Assembly: GCA_025980665.1 (NCBI GenBank)
Contig: JAICXC010000010.1
Location: 1-64,000 of the forward strand
DNA from: Bryobacteraceae bacterium
GTDB taxonomy: Bacteria > Acidobacteriota > Terriglobia > Bryobacterales > Bryobacteraceae
DNA length: 64,000 nt
Direction of reading: 5' to 3'
Positions 10,210 to 50,763 of the stretch are shown here, one piece after another. The notes beneath the pieces were generated by a model that was not told where the DNA came from, made no database searches, and saw only the letters and a list, made by a program, of their open reading frames with translations. Position 1 is the first letter of the stretch. Every line of letters starts with the position of its first letter. The translations under genes and the position numbers were made by a program.

Positions 10210-12666
10210 GTGAGGCGGGACACGCTCCTCGATTTCTTCGCGGACCTAGCCGATCTCCCGAATCAATTCCTCATCTATGACGACGGCTTCCGCATTGAGC
10301 AGCGCACCTATCGGCAAACTGCGCAAGCCGCGCGCGGTTTAACCGTGCGGCTCCGCGAAGGCGGCGTTCGCAAAGGCGACAAAATCGTCATCTGGAGCGA
10401 AAACCGCCCCGAATGGATCGCAGCGTTCTGGGCTTGTCTGCTGGCCGGCGCGATCGTGGTCCCCGTGGATTACCGAGCTTCATCCGCATTTCTCCTGCGC
10501 ATCCGCGATAAAGTCGGTGCCCGCATCGTGTGGATTGGCGATGAGGTCCTGTGGCCTGAGGACGCCGAACCCCGCCCCTGGAAGCTTTCCGATACCGATT
10601 GGGCAGACACGCGGACGGTTTCCGCGGAATCCGTCAATCGCGACGATATCGCCGAAATCGTATTCACCTCCGGAGCGACGGCCGATCCCAAAGGCGTGAT
10701 CATCACGCATCGTAACATCCTCGCCAACATCGTACCGGTCGAAACCGAGATTCGAAAATACCGGCGCTTCGGCGGACCCTTCTTCCCTCTTCGCTTCCTG
10801 AACCTGCTGCCGCTGAGCCACATGTTCGGGCAGGCCATGGCGACGTTCGTCCCGCCGATGCTTCCGGGCGTAGTGGTGTTCATGCGGGGATATAGCCCGG
10901 AAGAGATTATCCGCCAGATTCGCGGGCGGCGGATCTCCGTACTGGTATCGGTGCCCAAGATTCTCGAGATCCTGCGCGAGTATGTCGTGCGGCAGTTTCC
11001 CGAAGCTGCCACGGCGTTGCCTTTAAACGCGCGCTGGCCGCGGCGATGGTGGCACTACCGCCGAACTCATCGCCTGTTCGGATGGAAGTTCTGGGCGTTC
11101 GTAGTGGGCGCCGCGCCGCTGGCCCCCGATGTGGAGGAATTCTGGTCACGCCTTGGGTTCCTGACGATCCAAGGCTACGGGCTGACCGAGACCGCGCCGA
11201 TCGTCACGCTCAATCATCCTTTCCACACACGCCAGGGCACCGTCGGCAAGCCGATTGGCGGGGTAGACGTGAAGATCGCACCCGATGGCGAGATTCTCGT
11301 TCGCGGCGAAAACGTGAGCTCAGGTTATTTCGGGCAGACAGTAGGAAACTCGTCCGAAGGCGGCTGGCTGCACACGGGCGACATCGGCGAATTCGACTCT
11401 GAGGGCAGGTTGTCGATCAAAGGGCGCAAGAAGGAAATGATCGTCACCCCGGAAGGTTTGAATGTCTTTCCGGAGGATGTCGAGCGCGTGCTGGACCGAA
11501 TTCCCGGCGTCAAGGAATCGGCGGCTGTCGGGAAGGATCGTGTTCACGCGGTTCTTGTTCTAAAACCCGGAGCCGACCCCGACGCGATCGTGCGCGCCGC
11601 GAACAGCAAGCTCGAAGATCATCAACGCATACAAGGAGTGAGCCTTTGGCCGGAACACGAGCTTCCGCGCACCGAAGGCACCGGCAAGCTGAAGCGCGCT
11701 GCCATCTGGCAGTGGGTGGACTCCGGAGGCCATCGAGACCGTCGGGAGCGGGTTGAGCCCACACGAATTGGGAGCGCGATAGAGCAACTGATGGCACAGT
11801 ATGCGCGTGGCCGCACGCTCACGCCCGAAACGACGCTCGAAGAGCTGGGCCTCAGTTCCCTGGAGCGGGTGGAAGTGATGATCCAGTTGGGCCTGAACGA
11901 GCCGGATTTCCAGGCGGCCCGGACCGTGGGCGATCTATCCTCCATCCGTGAACATCCCACGGTTGCAGCTGCGATCCCGGCGCAGGATATTCCAAGCTGG
12001 CCCCGAGGACGCGTTGCTTCTTTCGTGCGCGACATCGGGTTGGCGCTGGTGATTCTGCCCCTTGCTCGGCTGTTCGCCTGGCTACGGATCGAAGGCCGCG
12101 AAAATCTCGAACACTTGGAAGCTCCGGTCATTTTCGCATCCAATCACCAGAGCCACTTCGATGGACCTGCGATTCTGATGGCACTGCCCTATCGCCTGCG
12201 GCGGCGCGTGGCGATTGCGGCCTCGCGCGAATTCTTCGCCGGGCACTTCCATCCCGACAATTTCTCGCGCTGGCGAAGATTCACTAGTGGCCTTAGCTTT
12301 TTCCTGGCTTCACTGTTCTTCAATATTTTCCCGCTGCCCCAGCGCGAGGCCGGCGCCATGGAAGCCCTGCGCTATGCCGGACGCCTGATCAGCCAAGGCT
12401 GGAATGTGTTGATTTTCCCGGAAGGCGATCGCACGGATGCAGGCGAGATTCACCCCTTTTACCCTGGCGTGGGGATGATGGCCTCGCGGTTGGCAACACA
12501 AGTGATTCCCGTGCGCCTGGAGGGCCTCGAACTCATCCTCCACAAGACTTGGCGCATGGCCAAGCCGGGCCGCGCGAGAATCCGCTTTGGCGCGCCTCTA
12601 AGTTTAGATGGCGACGATTACACGTCGCTGGCGGCGCGGGTCGAACGCGCGGTCCGCGATCTCTGA
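10210..12666 (+). CDS. Trifunctional fusion: acyl-AMP ligase, acyl carrier domain, PlsC-type acyltransferase
   Basis: About 818 residues. Residues ~1-515 are an ANL adenylating enzyme: TSGATADPKGVIITH (phosphate loop), GYGLTETAP, LHTGDIGEF and the catalytic KGRKKEMIV hinge. Residues ~520-590 look like an acyl carrier domain, with LEELGLSSLERVEV and the likely phosphopantetheine Ser at 550. Residues ~620-818 are a glycerolipid acyltransferase with the NHQSHFD box (H646-D651) and FPEGDRTDAGEI. A plausible reaction is activation of a free fatty acid, loading onto the internal carrier, and transfer to a lysolipid. Domain order is the reverse of E. coli Aas. The frame is open far upstream but runs antisense through coxS; GTG 10210 is the first start codon in the divergent gap and lacks a clear Shine-Dalgarno. 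Confidence 0.8.
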   Translation: MRRDTLLDFFADLADLPNQFLIYDDGFRIEQRTYRQTAQAARGLTVRLREGGVRKGDKIVIWSENRPEWIAAFWACLLAGAIVVPVDYRASSAFLLRIRDKVGARIVWIGDEVLWPEDAEPRPWKLSDTDWADTRTVSAESVNRDDIAEIVFTSGATADPKGVIITHRNILANIVPVETEIRKYRRFGGPFFPLRFLNLLPLSHMFGQAMATFVPPMLPGVVVFMRGYSPEEIIRQIRGRRISVLVSVPKILEILREYVVRQFPEAATALPLNARWPRRWWHYRRTHRLFGWKFWAFVVGAAPLAPDVEEFWSRLGFLTIQGYGLTETAPIVTLNHPFHTRQGTVGKPIGGVDVKIAPDGEILVRGENVSSGYFGQTVGNSSEGGWLHTGDIGEFDSEGRLSIKGRKKEMIVTPEGLNVFPEDVERVLDRIPGVKESAAVGKDRVHAVLVLKPGADPDAIVRAANSKLEDHQRIQGVSLWPEHELPRTEGTGKLKRAAIWQWVDSGGHRDRRERVEPTRIGSAIEQLMAQYARGRTLTPETTLEELGLSSLERVEVMIQLGLNEPDFQAARTVGDLSSIREHPTVAAAIPAQDIPSWPRGRVASFVRDIGLALVILPLARLFAWLRIEGRENLEHLEAPVIFASNHQSHFDGPAILMALPYRLRRRVAIAASREFFAGHFHPDNFSRWRRFTSGLSFFLASLFFNIFPLPQREAGAMEALRYAGRLISQGWNVLIFPEGDRTDAGEIHPFYPGVGMMASRLATQVIPVRLEGLELILHKTWRMAKPGRARIRFGAPLSLDGDDYTSLAARVERAVRDL

Positions 12667-44174: not shown

Positions 44175-44834
44175 ATGTCTTTGCGCATTAACGACGTAGC
44201 TCCCGATTTTACGGCCGAAACTACCCAGGGCCCGATCAAGTTTCACGAATGGATTGGAGACGGCTGGGCCATTCTGTTTTCGCACCCCAAAGACTTTACT
44301 CCCGTATGCACAACCGAGCTAGGCTACATGGCAGGGCTCGAGCCTGACTTTAAGAAGCGCAATACCAAGATCATCGGGCTCAGTGTCGATCCCGTCGACA
44401 GTCATGGCAAATGGGCCGCCGATATCGAAGAGACGCAGGGCCACAAAGTAAACTATCCGATGATCGGCGATCCGCAGTTAAAGATCGCCAAGCTCTACGA
44501 CATGCTTCCGGCCGATGCCGGCGAGACGTCGGATGGCCGCACGCCAGCCAACAATGCCACCGTGCGTACGGTATACGTGATCGGGCCGGATAAGAAGATC
44601 AAGCTGATGCTGGCCTATCCCATGAGTACCGGGCGCAATTTCGACGAAATCGTGCGCGCCCTGGACTCGATGCAGCTCACCAGCAAAATGGGCGTATCGA
44701 CGCCGGTGAACTGGAAACCCGGCGAAGACGTGGTTGTTCCCTCGGCGTGGCCGGACGACGAGGCCAAGAAGAAGTTCCCCGGGGGCTGGAAGACCCTGAA
44801 GCCCTACTTGCGGCTGGGGTCGCTGCCGAAGTAA
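44175..44834 (+). CDS. 1-Cys peroxiredoxin (Prx6 type)
   Basis: 219 residues, Prx6-subfamily length, with the peroxidatic motif DFTPVCTTELGYMAG (Cys 45, the only cysteine). The C-terminal dimerisation extension contains PVNWKPGEDVVVP and FPGGWKTLKPYLRL. It reduces hydrogen peroxide or lipid peroxides in the cytoplasm, needing an external thiol or ascorbate as reductant. A strong AGGAGG precedes the ATG, suggesting high expression. A stem-loop (44837-44858) follows the stop. Confidence 0.93.
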   Translation: MSLRINDVAPDFTAETTQGPIKFHEWIGDGWAILFSHPKDFTPVCTTELGYMAGLEPDFKKRNTKIIGLSVDPVDSHGKWAADIEETQGHKVNYPMIGDPQLKIAKLYDMLPADAGETSDGRTPANNATVRTVYVIGPDKKIKLMLAYPMSTGRNFDEIVRALDSMQLTSKMGVSTPVNWKPGEDVVVPSAWPDDEAKKKFPGGWKTLKPYLRLGSLPK

Positions 44835-44836
44835 CG

Positions 44837-44858
44837 CGCGAAGTCATCCCCCTTCGCG
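44837..44858 (+). terminator. Stem-loop after the peroxiredoxin gene
   Basis: CGCGAAG and CTTCGCG form a 7-bp stem with an 8-nt loop beginning 3 nt after the stop codon. No T-tract follows, so it may be a factor-dependent terminator or a 3'-end stabiliser rather than an intrinsic terminator. Confidence 0.35.
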
Positions 44859-45057
44859 TAGTAGGCGCTGTGGGGCCCAATTGTGGTCACTCGTCTACCA
44901 ATCGCGGTTACTCCGTAGAATGATTACTTTCGTTTTTGCTGCCGTGAGCGTTCACGAATCATACAATCCAACGGTATCCCGGTAGTATTATGGAGAACGT
45001 CATCGCGGAACGACACAGGGATAGCTCATCACCTGAGTCGAAAGTCGAATAATACGG

Positions 45058-46317
45058 ATGCTTGTTGCAAATGCCAAAGCTGCTGCCCGGGCCGCCCTTG
45101 AGTTCGTCAACGCGTATAGCAAAGAATCAAGAGCTGCATTAGCTGTAGCTCGATTAGAGCGACGACTTCCGCAAACGATGCCTTTCCCCGCTCGCCGGCA
45201 TCTGGACGCCGCCGTCGCATGGATTGCCAGAGCCCAGGACGTTAGTAACACCGGTGGGGTCGCTTGGGGTTATCGAACGCGGCGTCCGGTCCGCACGACG
45301 TACCCCATGGGGTGGATCGGCCCGTATCCGGAGACGACGGGTTACATTATCCCGACGATGCTCCGCTATGCGGACGTAACGGGGGATAAAGACGCGCTTG
45401 AAAGAGCCCGGCGCATGACGGAATGGGAGATGTCTATTCAACTGGCGGATGGCGGGATCCAGGGAGGGATCTACGGCTCACAGCCGGTGGCATCCAGCAC
45501 CTTCGTTACGGGACAGGTTCTATTTGGATTCGTCTCAGCGTTCGAGCGCTTCCACGATGAGCGCATACGGACGGCGGCAATCCGCGCGGGAGACTGGCTC
45601 CTCGAATGTCTAGATGAGACCGGCCGGTTCGTTCGTGGGCACTCTCATTTCTGCGAACCAGGGGCAAAGGCATACGAAGCTCGCACAGGCCTTGCGCTTG
45701 CGGAACTCGGGGATCTGGTGCGCGAGCAAAAGTATCGCGATGCCGCCTCAAATACAGCAGATTACGCGTTGAGCACACAACAGCCGAATGGCTGGTTCGC
45801 GGAAAACGATCTCGATTTTCACGATCAGCCGCTCACTCATACTATCGGATACGTTCTGGAGGGATTGCACGGAATTGGCGTCCGCCTCGGCCGGCAGGAC
45901 TGTATAGATGCGGTCGAGCGAACGTTGCGTGCGATTCTGCCGTTGATTCAATCGAATGGGTACTTGTCAGGCCGGCTCCGCAAGGACTGGACGCCGGCCG
46001 TAGACTTTGTGTGCCTTACGGGATCGTCCCAGATCGCCGGTGTATTCCTGCGCATGTATCTGCAAACCGGAAAACGCGAATACTTCCAGGCAGGCCGCAA
46101 CCTTCTGGGATTCGTATGCTTCACCCAGGAACTGACGCCTAATATCCCCGGCGTCGACGGCGGGATTCGAGGCTCCTATCCGTTTGGGGGCCAATACGGG
46201 CAATGGTGCGTCCTGAACTGGGCGACTAAGTTCTTTGCGGATTCCGTGGCGGACTATCTTGTGGCTGAGGACAAGGCCGGGCGCGCAGGGAACGTCCTTT
46301 CGCCGCAGCATGAATAG
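45058..46317 (+). CDS. (alpha/alpha)-barrel protein, terpenoid-cyclase/glycosidase-like fold
   Basis: 419 residues, mostly helical, built from repeated helical hairpins typical of (alpha/alpha)6 barrels: ETTGYIIPTMLRYADVTGD, ALERARRMTEWEMSIQLADGG, FVTGQVLFGFVSAFERFHD, LTHTIGYVLEGLHGIGVRL. The central cavity is lined with Trp, Tyr, His and Asp residues (e.g. GGVAWGYRTRR, NGWFAENDLDFHDQP). Relatives include squalene-cyclase-like, epimerase and unsaturated-glycoside-hydrolase proteins of polysaccharide loci; the reaction is not predictable. No signal peptide. The next gene starts before its stop (8-nt overlap). First gene of a four-gene cassette. Confidence 0.65.
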   Translation: MLVANAKAAARAALEFVNAYSKESRAALAVARLERRLPQTMPFPARRHLDAAVAWIARAQDVSNTGGVAWGYRTRRPVRTTYPMGWIGPYPETTGYIIPTMLRYADVTGDKDALERARRMTEWEMSIQLADGGIQGGIYGSQPVASSTFVTGQVLFGFVSAFERFHDERIRTAAIRAGDWLLECLDETGRFVRGHSHFCEPGAKAYEARTGLALAELGDLVREQKYRDAASNTADYALSTQQPNGWFAENDLDFHDQPLTHTIGYVLEGLHGIGVRLGRQDCIDAVERTLRAILPLIQSNGYLSGRLRKDWTPAVDFVCLTGSSQIAGVFLRMYLQTGKREYFQAGRNLLGFVCFTQELTPNIPGVDGGIRGSYPFGGQYGQWCVLNWATKFFADSVADYLVAEDKAGRAGNVLSPQHE

Positions 46318-47335
46318 TGATCAAATGCTGGCAGAATTCGTTCGTGGCGATCGCGACCACGAGGAGCTGCTGAACCGACTCGGGGAGGCGAACCCGTTCT
46401 GCACAGTAGAATACGCGAAAGCGATGCAGGCCCTCGGACGGGAGGTCTGGATCGTCGGGCTCCAGTCGAAACCATCCATATGGGACGCAGCGCTCGGTTG
46501 CATCAGGAAGGGGAGGCTGTCGGTAGAACTCGAGTTCCCCTCCTCGCCGGCGATCGCGCGGGACCTCCGCTTCTGGGAAGTTGTGGACCGTTTGTGCGAA
46601 CGGGCCGGAGTTACGGATCTCATCGCGGACAGTTTCGGCTCGACACCATTTGAACTCCCAACCCTGCGGGGGGAGCTTTCGCGAAACATGCGACAAGAGT
46701 TTGTCCTGCGGTTGACGGACACCGATCTGCCGTCGCTGCTTGGCTCCAATCACAAACGAAATGTGAAGAAAGCCCAGAAGGCTGGAGTGACGATCCGGCG
46801 CACCCGCGAAAGGCCGGAGTGGCTATCCGATCATACGGCCTTAATGAGCCACTCCGCTGCGAGGCGGACCGCACGGGGCGAGTCGGTTTCCATGAGCACG
46901 GATAGCATATCCTACCGCGCGCTCATGGAGAACGGAGCCGCTGAGTTATTTCAGGCGGTTTCAGGAACGAATGTGCTCTCGTCGGTTCTCGTGTTGCTTT
47001 CGCCGCGCACTGGGTACTATCACTCGGCGGGCAGCAGTCCGGACGGCATGGAAATGGGTGCATCACACTTCCTGATGCATGGAATCACCAGAATTCTCAA
47101 GGACGAATGCCGGGAAACGTTCAACCTGGGCGGTGCCGCGGAAGGCTCTTCGCTCGCCAGATTCAAACTCGGCTTTGGTCCGGAGAGGCTCGTACTGCCG
47201 GCGGCGGCTTGTTACGTCGGCCCGACATGGCGACGCAACATCATTACCCTGGTCGAGCTCGCCAGGAAGAGTTCCCGGAAATTCCGCCGGTCGACGCCGG
47301 ACAGCGAACCTCGGGACACGCATGGGAGCACATGA
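46310..47335 (+). CDS. FemAB-like GNAT acyl/aminoacyltransferase
   Basis: 341 residues from ATG 46310. The C-terminal half carries the Acetyltransf_6/FemAB-like domain: LGSNHKRNVKKAQKAGVTIR (typical of FemAB and BioF2-like transferases), SSVLVLLSPRTGYYHSAGSS and HFLMHGITRILKDECRETFNLGG, ending FKLGFGPERLVLP. Family members add amino acids from tRNA or acyl groups to peptidoglycan precursors or exopolysaccharide intermediates. The gene overlaps the barrel gene by 8 nt and the next gene by 4 nt (ATGA), indicating one co-translated operon. Substrate unknown. Confidence 0.75.
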   Translation: MNSDQMLAEFVRGDRDHEELLNRLGEANPFCTVEYAKAMQALGREVWIVGLQSKPSIWDAALGCIRKGRLSVELEFPSSPAIARDLRFWEVVDRLCERAGVTDLIADSFGSTPFELPTLRGELSRNMRQEFVLRLTDTDLPSLLGSNHKRNVKKAQKAGVTIRRTRERPEWLSDHTALMSHSAARRTARGESVSMSTDSISYRALMENGAAELFQAVSGTNVLSSVLVLLSPRTGYYHSAGSSPDGMEMGASHFLMHGITRILKDECRETFNLGGAAEGSSLARFKLGFGPERLVLPAAACYVGPTWRRNIITLVELARKSSRKFRRSTPDSEPRDTHGST

Positions 47336-49116
47336 GACCCGCCCTCTTGTTGGGAGATGAGCCTCGCATCGTGGTTCCGGTAGCCCGCTCTCTATGGCGG
47401 CGAGGAATACCCGTGTCGGTCGCCACGCTCGAAACGGACTCGCCGCCTCTCCAATCACGAGCGATAGAGCGATTTCACCGGCTGATGGTTGAAGACCAGG
47501 CCGAGAGCCCAATCGATCGCTTGCTGAGGATCATTGACACCGAGGGGGCGGACTGGCTCCTGCCGACCAGCGACTCGAGTCTGCTTTTTGTGGCGCATCA
47601 CTACGCCCAGTTGAGCCCGTCGATCAAGCTGGCATGCCCCGATGCCCAGACCATCCTGACGGTTCTAGACAAAAACCGCACAATTGATGCTGCTATCCGC
47701 TGCGGCATTGAGGTCCCCCGTACTTACAGAATCGAATCGCTTGCCCACCTTCACGAGGAACGCGGGAGCTTGCGGTTCCCCTTAATCGCGAAGCCAGCCC
47801 ACAAGCAGGCGGTTGTATCCTTTAAGCTCCGGTACTACCGCGAATGGGTCGAACTCGAGCGGGAGTTCCTGCTGGACTCCGATTTCGGCCGGAAGCACAT
47901 ACTCCAGGAATACGAACCCGGTGAGGGGGTTGGCATCGAAGTTCTAATGGCGGGTGGTTGCCCAAAGATTCTGTTCGCCCACCGGCGAATCCAGGAGTAT
48001 CCCAGCACCGGCGGCGTAAGCGTGGTAGCAAGAAGTGAGGAGTTGTACCCGGAACTGGTGGAGAAATCCATCACACTACTGCGTGAAATCGGTTGGGAAG
48101 GACTGGCTATGGTGGAGTACCGGTATGACCGTGATTCCAGACGTGCCACGCTGATGGAAGTAAATGGGCGCGTCTGGGGCTCCATCGGCCTATCGGCCGC
48201 GGCCGGAATTGACTATCCATTTGCCGCCTGGCAGCTGGCACACGGACAGGATGTGCCGCAAGCCAATTACCAGCCCGGAGTCCGAGCCCGATGGACCGCC
48301 GGCGTCATGCTGCGCCTTTACGATCTGTTCGTGAACCCTCGCACCGACGGAATGCCGAGGCCATCCACTTTTCGAGAGTTCTTCCTGGCGGTGAAGGTCT
48401 TCTTTCCAGGCACGCGCGACATGCTCTGGGCTTGGGACGACCCGCGACCCGCGATATCCGAACTGTTATCGACCGGAAAGCGGCTGGCCCGTCAACCGGT
48501 GAAGGCGCTCATTAGCAGCGTCCTGCCGAAAACGATCGTCTCCTTTCTGCGGATATGGCGTTCGCTGGAGAAGGGAACCAAAGAGATCTACGCGCGGCGT
48601 CAACTCCGCCGGATAGCTGTGACCAATCGGCCGCGATTGCCCGTGAAGGTCCAGTTGGTCTTGTGCGTCTGCCACGGGAACATCATTCGAAGCCCCTTCG
48701 CCTCGGCGCTGTTGGCACGGGCAGGCTTTCGATCTGTGTCTGCTGGTTTGAACGCGCAGCCGGGCCGCGGAGCGGACGCGCGAGCGATTCGCATCGCTAG
48801 GGAGTTCGGCGTCTCCCTTGCAGACCACATGGCCAGCCCTCTGACCACCGCGATGATCGATGACGCCGACGTGATTTTCGTCATGGACGGAGTCAACGAA
48901 GCGCGACTCCTGCGCCGCTTCCCGCAAGCATGCCAAAAAACGCTGCTGCTAGGCAGTTTCGCGCCGCAACGGCAGGTTGCGGACGAGATACCTGATCCAT
49001 ACAATGAAGACGACAACGCCCTCCTCCGCTGTTATGAGGTAATCTCCGGCTGCGTGACGCAGGTTTCGACTAGCCTTAGCTTGGCAGAGAACCGCGGGAA
49101 GGTTAGCAGAACGTAA
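47332..49116 (+). CDS. Fusion of ATP-grasp ligase and low-molecular-weight protein tyrosine phosphatase
   Basis: 594 residues from ATG 47332 (GGGAG 5 nt upstream). Residues 1-390 are an ATP-grasp enzyme of the carbamoyl-phosphate-synthase-like group: a pre-ATP-grasp Rossmann part (ALLLGDEPRIVVPVARSL), FPLIAKPAHKQAV, HILQEYEPGEGVGIEVL and the metal-binding LMEVNGRVWGS. Residues ~440-594 are a low-molecular-weight phosphatase with a complete active site, CHGNIIRS (C447, R453) and the acid loop IPDPY (D555). ATP-grasp enzymes join a carboxylate to an amine; LMW phosphatases usually reverse tyrosine phosphorylation on capsule regulators. The fusion in one chain is unusual. It overlaps both neighbours. 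Confidence 0.85.
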   Translation: MRPALLLGDEPRIVVPVARSLWRRGIPVSVATLETDSPPLQSRAIERFHRLMVEDQAESPIDRLLRIIDTEGADWLLPTSDSSLLFVAHHYAQLSPSIKLACPDAQTILTVLDKNRTIDAAIRCGIEVPRTYRIESLAHLHEERGSLRFPLIAKPAHKQAVVSFKLRYYREWVELEREFLLDSDFGRKHILQEYEPGEGVGIEVLMAGGCPKILFAHRRIQEYPSTGGVSVVARSEELYPELVEKSITLLREIGWEGLAMVEYRYDRDSRRATLMEVNGRVWGSIGLSAAAGIDYPFAAWQLAHGQDVPQANYQPGVRARWTAGVMLRLYDLFVNPRTDGMPRPSTFREFFLAVKVFFPGTRDMLWAWDDPRPAISELLSTGKRLARQPVKALISSVLPKTIVSFLRIWRSLEKGTKEIYARRQLRRIAVTNRPRLPVKVQLVLCVCHGNIIRSPFASALLARAGFRSVSAGLNAQPGRGADARAIRIAREFGVSLADHMASPLTTAMIDDADVIFVMDGVNEARLLRRFPQACQKTLLLGSFAPQRQVADEIPDPYNEDDNALLRCYEVISGCVTQVSTSLSLAENRGKVSRT

Positions 49117-49937
49117 TGATCAAGCGGTTGAAGGGGCTCGCGGCGCGCATAGCGGACACACGGTTGGTGCGCAGTCTGGTTGTACACCTCGTATATCCGA
49201 CTATCGTCCGGTGTTTGCTACAGGAGGTGCAGCCGGACAAGGATTCTCCATCCGGATTGGCCGAAGCCTTTGGGTGGAAGGCGCATGCCCTTCTGGTGAA
49301 GAACGAGGAACTCGCCGACGGGAAAAACTGCTGTGCCGGAGCGTCCGAATCAACGAGCGAAAGCAGGGGGCGCCTACTTGATGTCGTGCTGGAAAGCGCG
49401 GCGTCCGCACCAGGGGATGTCTTCGAATTCGGTGTGGCCTCGGGGGACTCCTTCCTCACATTCCTGGACCGATGCCCGGATCGCCAGGTTTACGGTTTCG
49501 ATTCGTGGGAGGGACTCCCAGAGAAGTGGTGGACCCGGCCAAAAGGGGCCTTCAGGGCGACGCCACCGGAGTTTAAGAATCCAAATGGACATCTGATCAA
49601 GGGCTGGTATAACGAGTCGGCGCCGCGTTTCTTCGACGATTGGCACGGTAACATCGCCATTTTGCACATTGACTGCGACCTTTACTCATCTACGGCGACG
49701 GTCTTTCAGCACGCGATTCGATATTGCCGGGCAGGTACGGTCGTCTTGTTCGATGAGTACTGGAATTACCCAAAGTTTGCAGAGCATGAGTGGCTGGCAT
49801 GGCGGAGGACACGCGCCGCGTTCTCCATTAAAGCGGAATGTATCGGCTACGACGGGCGTCGGGCTGCGTTTCGAATCCGTGAGATCGCTTCCCCCGGGCT
49901 AATGTCGGATCGTAGGGCAGAACCGACCACCGTTTAA
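49116..49937 (+). CDS. TylF/MycF-like SAM-dependent methyltransferase
   Basis: 273 residues. Methyltransferase motifs resemble TylF/MycF macrolide-sugar O-methyltransferases: DVFEFGVASGDSFLTFL, QVYGFDSWEGLPEKW, ILHIDCDLYSSTATVF (metal-binding Asp) and VVLFDEYWNYPKF. TylF relatives methylate sugar hydroxyls and are frequent in surface-polysaccharide clusters. The start codon overlaps the stop of the fusion gene (TAATG). Last gene of the cassette; a 538-nt gap follows. Confidence 0.8.
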   Translation: MIKRLKGLAARIADTRLVRSLVVHLVYPTIVRCLLQEVQPDKDSPSGLAEAFGWKAHALLVKNEELADGKNCCAGASESTSESRGRLLDVVLESAASAPGDVFEFGVASGDSFLTFLDRCPDRQVYGFDSWEGLPEKWWTRPKGAFRATPPEFKNPNGHLIKGWYNESAPRFFDDWHGNIAILHIDCDLYSSTATVFQHAIRYCRAGTVVLFDEYWNYPKFAEHEWLAWRRTRAAFSIKAECIGYDGRRAAFRIREIASPGLMSDRRAEPTTV

Positions 49938-50475
49938 CTGTCAGGTCGTCTGCTGCCATGTCGCTGGAGCTGATGCGCGTCGTGGTCGGCGCGTGTTCTC
50001 GATCGGACGCGCCGCGATTCCGCGCTATGTTGGTGTCAAAACCGCGAACTACCATGCTGCCGAGACACTGGCGGTCCTGGAATTGGAGGATGGTGAAGCG
50101 GAGATTTCCGGGGTCGAAGCCGCTCGGGCGTTCCACGGCCAAGGCCTGTATGGATACGCGATTCAGGGTCTCGCTTGCTTAGCCCGTGATCAGGGAATTT
50201 GGCGCATTAATATGAAAGCTCTGGAGGGAAGGCTGGCTTTAGCCCAATCGATTCGGTCCGCCTGATTCATCCTCCGCTCATGCCATCACGCACGCTCATC
50301 CGACGCACGCTGTCGAAGGCCCCGAAGAACTAGAAGCCCGGAATCAGCTTTGCGATTTCAAACAGGCGCCCGCGGCCATCACAGCTTGTACGCGGTTTTT
50401 GCCCATATAGGCAACGAGCTTAACGGATGGCATCCCGGCTTACTTTATTAAGGCGCTGTTTAGGGCTGCGGGCAC
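49938..50475. other. 538-nt stretch without a confident gene
   Basis: It lies between the TylF-like methyltransferase and ylxP. It holds the doubtful 90-codon plus-strand frame at 49993-50265 and, on the minus strand, a 29-codon frame at 50344-50433. No tRNA, inverted repeat of note or insertion-sequence end was seen. As the right-hand border of the four-gene cassette it may preserve traces of the insertion or rearrangement that brought it in. Confidence 0.4.
49993..50265 (+). CDS. Possible small hypothetical protein in a 538-nt gap
   Basis: A 90-codon frame from GTG 49993 with codon use like the neighbouring genes (e.g. GVKTANYHAAETLAVLEL, FHGQGLYGYAIQGLACL). I recognise no family, and there is no convincing ribosome binding site. 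It may be a real small gene, or a remnant of something inserted after the cassette. The rest of 49938-50475, including 50266-50475, shows no gene I can support. Confidence 0.25.
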   Translation: MFSIGRAAIPRYVGVKTANYHAAETLAVLELEDGEAEISGVEAARAFHGQGLYGYAIQGLACLARDQGIWRINMKALEGRLALAQSIRSA

Positions 50476-50763
50476 CTACGCCAGCCACTCGACCGTAACA
50501 TCCACGAGTATCGGACCTAACAGCGCGGCAGCCTCGCGCTCCGCACTTTGCAGGATCTTCTCCGCGTACGGCTTGTCGGGAGATACGGTCACCGCCGCCA
50601 CCAAAGCGTGCTGCCAGGAGTCCTGGTAATCGATCTCAGCCACAGCCACATTGCATCGAGATCGCAGACGATCTTTCAGCCCTTTTACAAAGTGCCTTTT
50701 GTCTTTGAGAGAGTGCGACCCTTCCAGGCGCAGCTCAAAAGTGATAACGCCTACCGCAGGCAC
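50476..50763 (-). CDS. ylxP: DUF503/YlxP-family protein
   Basis: 95 residues of the DUF503 family: VGVITFELRLEGSHSLKDKR, HFVKGLKDRLRSRCNVAVAEI and the C-terminal LVDVTVEWL. YlxP-type proteins are encoded beside infB/rbfA and are thought to assist ribosome maturation or translation. It begins 1 nt after the infB stop, as the last gene of rimP-nusA-infB-ylxP. rbfA and truB, which often follow, are not here. Confidence 0.88.
   Translation of the reverse strand: MPAVGVITFELRLEGSHSLKDKRHFVKGLKDRLRSRCNVAVAEIDYQDSWQHALVAAVTVSPDKPYAEKILQSAEREAAALLGPILVDVTVEWLA

Follow-up and report, generated by a model that had tools for sequence, protein, structure and literature searches.

The PEP-CTERM/EpsH system has been linked to exopolysaccharide (EPS) loci (PMC9850573, PMC1569441). 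The EPS (floc) clusters of Zoogloea and Aquincola contain two asparagine synthetase genes (PMC9012009), and an EPS cluster of Thauera contains AsnB-like and deacetylase genes (PMC4784049). The psc1 cluster of Rubrivivax gelatinosus combines a FemAB-like gene with genes for an AsnB-like protein, a glycosyltransferase (GT), a deacetylase and a flippase; its published gene table carries a transposon-insertion mark on several GT and AsnB-like genes and on the flippase gene, but not on the FemAB gene (PMC3684757). Here, we describe a cassette of four genes, g1 to g4, in a 64,000-nucleotide (nt) stretch of a contig from a Bryobacteraceae bacterium (the window). The cassette resembles exosortase (XrtA/EpsH)-PEP-CTERM EPS clusters in its FemAB-like gene family, and an exosortase gene is present in 28 of 80 loci that contain relatives of g1. 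Unlike psc1, it consists of four tailoring genes only; in addition, the psc1 paper names no ATP-grasp enzyme, and the portions of its gene table that were examined list no tyrosine phosphatase (PMC3684757). When compared with the makeup of XrtA/PEP-CTERM EPS clusters, the cassette has neither the linked GT and flippase genes nor the exosortase gene. On balance, we lean towards the view that it is a detached EPS-tailoring operon, which was inserted between a peroxiredoxin gene and ylxP and which would serve, in trans, a host EPS cluster located on another contig.

The four genes and their products

All four genes are located on the plus strand. Gene g1 (45058–46317) encodes a 419-amino-acid (aa) alpha/alpha-barrel protein of an EPS-cluster-associated family, g2 (46310–47335) a 341-aa Fem-fold (double GNAT) transferase, g3 (47332–49116) a 594-aa fusion of an N-terminal ATP-grasp ligase, a basic linker, and a low-molecular-weight (LMW) protein-tyrosine-phosphatase (residues 443–577), and g4 (49116–49937) a 273-aa TylF/CalS11-like sugar O-methyltransferase. 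Consecutive genes overlap by 8 nt (46310–46317), 4 nt (47332–47335), and 1 nt (49116). The same coordinates and overlaps had been given in the original prediction, whose view of a single coupled unit is supported. The four open reading frames (ORFs) are not chance frames, since each matches protein families or has homologues elsewhere. The domain labels assigned earlier also hold, with g2, g3, and g4 scoring over Pfam cut-offs and the barrel of g1 resting on a predicted model. Foreign base composition was not seen (G+C 0.58–0.60 in the cassette genes versus 0.593 in the window), and promoter-like and terminator-like sites around the cassette showed no excess over shuffled sequences.

Structure prediction gave an alpha/alpha barrel for g1, with a predicted local distance difference test (pLDDT) score of 93.9; its inner helices were assigned from helix order and not from coordinates. 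Matching to solved structures with Foldseek (pdb_via) returned cellobiose 2-epimerases and GH88/GH105 hydrolases, but at 10–14% identity, and g1 has its own set of invariant residues: Y90, E92, Y96, Y206, H261, Y265, C319, Q325, Y380, K391, and D395 are conserved in all 49 aligned family members. In this alignment, H261 is the sole near-invariant histidine. AGE and cellobiose 2-epimerases use two catalytic histidines, and unsaturated glucuronyl hydrolases of GH88/GH105 use a catalytic aspartate. Glucuronyl C5-epimerases were not among the listed fold matches. The g1 protein of the window fell below every Pfam cut-off, with C5-epim_C as the best match (E 9e-4, 19.2 versus 23.3 bits); this model was matched at E 0.01 by 25 of the 49 members, one of which (L100) scored 27.3 against the 23.3 cut-off. 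The family is widespread, but none of the models in Pfam or NCBIfam is dedicated to it (49 members scanned), and nothing joining C5-epimerase, exopolysaccharide, and exosortase was found in the open-licence literature. The g1 protein may be an epimerase, a lyase, or a hydrolase that acts on a sugar or uronate.

The g2 product exceeded the Pfam gathering cut-offs of Acetyltransf_6 (35.0 versus 22 bits) and FemAB (30.5 versus 24 bits), and its predicted structure has the Fem fold. The solved folds nearest to it are peptide synthases solved with streptothrisamine, with FemX within about 1–2 Z units; a solved-structure search at a threshold of 0.1 matched nothing to g2. The predicted fold fits tRNA-dependent transferases better than coenzyme A-dependent ones, and g2 is probably an aminoacyl-tRNA-dependent N-acyltransferase. 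It is 14–18% identical to the aminoacyl-tRNA-dependent transferases FemX and Sbb17 but belongs to an EPS-associated family. The model of XrtA-associated FemAB proteins, TIGR03019, gave 10.7 bits with g2 of the window (cut-off 260.35 bits) and no match at 0.01.

The N-terminal part of g3 exceeded the gathering cut-offs of ATPgrasp_Ter (41.2 versus 29.1 bits) and CPSase_L_D2 (28.6 versus 19.8 bits) and contains the ATP-grasp motif EVNGR at residue 276, while a solved-structure search with g3 returned no ATP-grasp chain at E 0.01. Its C-terminal part matched LMWPc (79.7 versus 23.2 bits). LMW protein-tyrosine-phosphatases are recognized by a CX5R[ST] loop and a DP motif; g3 has the loop CHGNIIRS at residue 447 and DPY at residue 555. 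The best solved relative of this part is AmsI, with Wzb entries close behind. A phosphatase module with the GNIIRSP loop, encoded at 48660–49060 in the window as part of the ATP-grasp fusion, was also seen in loci L050, L051, L052, L059, and L012; the loop form of Wzb-type enzymes is GNICRSP. The g4 product exceeded the gathering cut-offs of TylF (42.7 versus 23 bits) and Methyltransf_24 (45.2 versus 26.3 bits), carries motifs of the S-adenosylmethionine (SAM)/metal type, and resembles natural-product sugar methyltransferases (CalS11-like).

Neighbourhoods of related genes

A profile scan of genome contigs with g1 gave at least 593 pattern matches, at least 589 of them to relatives (the number of genes is below that of match stretches, since two patterns can hit one gene), from which the best 80 loci (1.43 Mb) were kept. 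Many of these loci are cut by contig ends. ORFs were called by two methods and read by eye, as shadow frames occurred in G+C-rich loci and genes were missed in loci of intermediate G+C, the window included. The g1 alignment drew on 48 of the 80 loci and the g2 alignment on 20 of 23 g2 frames, with near-copies and short or long sequences left out. The g2 model was built with sequences from L063, L085, L102, and L107, the GT4 model with L063 and L107, the GT2 model with L062, and the g4 model on one sequence; thus, the loci that supplied sequences match partly by construction. As a rough control, 269 kb, mostly of the same genus and with some overlapping stretches, were scanned with the same models, and the only hits were two exosortases included deliberately.

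An EPS marker was present in 67 of the 80 loci; five contained only g2-like or ATP-grasp genes, and eight contained no hit. GT4 was found in 48 loci, Wzx in 46, AsnB-like genes in 42, exosortase in 28 (in each case at most 10 kb from g1), and GT2 in 23. Genes similar to g2 occurred in 22 loci and ATP-grasp genes in 19, followed by deacetylase-like (10), heparinase-like (five), UDP-sugar dehydrogenase (three), and formyltransferase (two) genes. Within 300 nt of g1 and on the same strand, a g2-like gene was found in 10 of the 80 loci and an ATP-grasp gene in nine; both were present somewhere in six loci. The g1 and g2 genes overlap by 14 nt in L063, by 1 nt in L085, and by 1 nt in L107; in L102 they overlap by 4 nt if a TTG start is used and are otherwise separated by 5 nt. 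Chosen neighbours of g1 in members of the phylum included, by Pfam, AsnB, heparinase II/III, a formyltransferase, an aminoglycoside-acetyltransferase-type protein, Wzx, GT2, sugar epimerases, and a FemAB-like gene, and two g1 homologues on haloarchaeal plasmids accompany sulfatase, glycosyltransferase, and UDP-sugar genes.

When 49 g1 proteins were placed in a tree, that of the window grouped with L062 and L063, which come from acidobacterial metagenome-assembled genomes (support 100/100), and the nine proteins with an adjacent g2 were spread over several separate branches. In L062, the closest of the best 80 loci, a DUF4910/DUF2172 gene follows g1 (11340–12650) in place of g2, and L128 (4208–6709) contains two g1-like matches in tandem.

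No homologue of the LMWPc part of g3 or of g4 was found in the best 80 loci, and none of them contains all four genes. On the basis of these best 80 of at least 589 match stretches, a conserved four-gene system was rejected; the adjacency check had been proposed in the original prediction, which had expected a conserved order to support such a system and had named residence of the homologues in EPS clusters as grounds against it. For g1, such residence is largely what was observed. The statement that the combination matches no known pathway is likewise not supported: the g1, FemAB-like, and ATP-grasp families are found together with EPS genes, which in many cases are of the exosortase/PEP-CTERM type.

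The fusion of g3 has a record of its own. Matches to g3 were found in at least 127 of 297 genomes sampled from the phylum, mostly to single domains; ATP-grasp and LMWPc matches shared a contig, no more than about 2.5 kb apart, in five genomes (G229, G245, G252, G260, and G274), and in four (G229, G260, G274, and G188) GT4 was fused to an LMWPc domain that has a basic linker and, as in the window, a GNIIRSP loop. The LMWPc gene of G229 is accompanied by heparinase II/III, polysaccharide deacetylase, and ATP-grasp genes (Pfam), and AsnB-like, glycosyltransferase, and nucleotide-sugar dehydrogenase genes were read by eye nearby. An ATP-grasp–LMWPc fusion could be aligned over residues 2–580 in three Vibrio alfacsensis plasmid records. 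The fusion of pVa1 (NZ_CP032095.1) has the same domain order as g3, with 26% identity over 2–580, and is located in a PEP-CTERM/EPS island, next to flippases, an Acetyltransf_6/GNAT protein, and PrsT of an XrtA/PEP-CTERM system, but the 31.7 kb read there contained no blastp match at 0.01 to g1, g2, or g4.

Proposed role and alternatives

The original prediction had reported no glycosyltransferase or transporter with the cassette. Within the 64-kb window, the models used gave no GT2, GT4, or flippase hit (a polymerase was not among the models), but such genes exist elsewhere in the genome. A single strong match to the flippase model Polysacc_synt_3 is present in the host assembly (completeness 89%); it is located on contig C200 and is surrounded by three GT4 genes and genes for a FemAB-like protein, a Wzy_C protein, a deacetylase-like protein, an AsnB-like protein, and a UDP-GlcNAc 2-epimerase. 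Since the EPS assembly genes are located on C200, we favour reading the cassette as a tailoring operon that has become detached and presumably acts in trans. Of two host exosortases, neither is on the cassette contig (C204); they are on C58 (L195, 6616–7542) and C70 (L196, 10375–11199), with no other EPS gene found by the models used in the 20 kb read around each.

Decoration of a surface polymer, one of the roles suggested originally, remains the best fit. No signal peptide was seen by eye in the cassette products, and the enzymes would work in the cytoplasm on nucleotide- or lipid-linked sugar precursors of the host EPS. In such a scheme, g1 would reshape a sugar or uronate residue, g2 would transfer an amino acid from aminoacyl-tRNA onto an amino sugar, a further amide bond would be made by the ATP-grasp half of g3, and g4 would O-methylate a sugar, while the phosphatase half of g3 may dephosphorylate an EPS protein such as a Wzc-type tyrosine kinase. 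The order of these steps, the substrates, and above all the reaction of g1 are conjectural. Because g1 relatives are found mostly in polysaccharide clusters, some of them beside relatives of g2 or g3, the cassette seems to combine known parts in an unusual way and not to be a new pathway.

What is new here is the possible tRNA-dependent aminoacylation of an EPS, which is also the testable point; we found no description of this reaction, or of the four-gene unit, in the open-licence literature. In the same literature, no paper covers three or more of ATP-grasp, FemAB, polysaccharide, and exosortase, and none links Fem-like enzymes to both streptothricin and aminoacyl-tRNA; exosortase and ATP-grasp meet in one paper, on an aminolipid, and a squalene oxidase repeat and exopolysaccharide in one on corynebacteria. 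None of the papers listed for an ATP-grasp–phosphatase fusion names ATP-grasp. More tentatively, the cassette may represent a movable EPS aminoacylation module, in which the Fem-fold enzyme uses aminoacyl-tRNA, the ATP-grasp enzyme extends the product, g1 prepares the sugar, and the fused phosphatase ties decoration to the control of polymerisation. If so, many exosortase-type EPSs would carry tRNA-derived amino acids. EPSs of this type matter for flocs and biofilms, and to our knowledge the chemistry of those made by exosortase/PEP-CTERM bacteria is poorly resolved. The operon isolates three families that recur in exosortase-type clusters (the barrel, the Fem-fold transferase, and the ATP-grasp enzyme), and their joint role can therefore be tested apart from the assembly machinery.

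We consider it unlikely that the operon serves to make or decorate a small sugar metabolite bearing aminoacyl and methyl groups, by a logic similar to that of streptothricin, with EPS genes being only the ancestral source of its parts. The structural neighbours of g2, the likeness of g4 to natural-product enzymes, and the lack of linked GT2, GT4, and flippase genes agree with such a function, but the unit holds four genes only, and hence no transporter or carrier, the relatives of g1, g2, and the ATP-grasp enzyme accompany EPS genes, and the phosphatase module is AmsI/Wzb-like and elsewhere fused to GT4. Slightly less likely still is that a lost EPS cluster left the cassette behind as a decaying remnant, which survived by chance and has no present role. 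The orphan position, the sporadic presence, and the same lack of linked GT2, GT4, and flippase genes fit a remnant, but none of the four frames is interrupted, the gene overlaps are preserved, and the phosphatase, ATP-grasp, and SAM/metal-type motifs are present.

Modification of peptidoglycan precursors by a Fem-type enzyme, also raised originally, appears improbable. It would account for the FemX/FemA fold of g2, and a FemX-type NCBIfam model is matched by 11 of the 21 proteins in the g2 alignment (best E 3.9e-9). However, 17 of the 21 have a match to the PEP-CTERM-associated FemAB model (best E 7.6e-143; g2 of the window matches neither model at 0.01), and it is mostly EPS genes that surround members of the g1 and g2 families. 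The least probable reading makes g1 a terpene- or prenyl-cyclase-like enzyme of an operon for a glycosylated or aminoacylated lipid. The squalene cyclase model TIGR01787 was matched at E 0.01 by 40 of the 49 g1 family members, but g1 of the window scored 10.6 bits with it, below the curated cut-off of 322.7.

Proposed insertion site and flanking genes

A g1 homologue was absent from all 60 relatives searched, including 22 from the same genus, and was found in seven other genomes among the 297 sampled from the phylum; a pattern scan of viral contigs gave no g1 relative. The peroxiredoxin and ylxP genes that flank the cassette share one contig in four genomes of the genus (G012, G014, G019, and G020; L191–L194). 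The interval between them is about 4.9 kb in G012, where it contains other genes, one of them matching CytoC_RC; about 0.9 kb in G014, with a formylglycine-enzyme-like gene; about 2.5 kb in G019, with a MacB/FtsX-type permease gene; and about 0.1 kb in G020. Positions 44836–50474 of the window gave no blastn alignment to any of these four stretches. Nine further genomes gave a strong peroxiredoxin match but carry the two flanking genes on separate contigs, and the empty-site argument thus rests on four genomes. No repeat pair joining both junctions was found in 44600–50700 (the rest of the window was not searched for transposase or integrase genes). The cassette is best interpreted as having been inserted locally at a variable site, in agreement with the inserted unit proposed earlier from its borders, a peroxiredoxin gene on one side and a 538-nt gap on the other.

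Neither the left junction (44835–45057; 223 nt, G+C 0.516) nor the right junction (49938–50475; 538 nt) was matched by blastn at the corresponding site of the four relatives. The right junction contains a 90-aa ORF on the plus strand (49993–50265) with no Pfam or NCBIfam match. The peroxiredoxin gene (44175–44834, plus strand) encodes a 1-cysPrx_C domain and has a 92% identical counterpart at the matching site in G014. The peroxiredoxin gene of G020 (L194, 2194–3834) lacks about 190 bases present in the window copy and matches in two frames. The DUF503 (ylxP-like) gene (50476–50763, minus strand) aligns in all four relatives, as does the adjoining long minus-strand ORF, which, judged by eye, encodes translation initiation factor IF-2.

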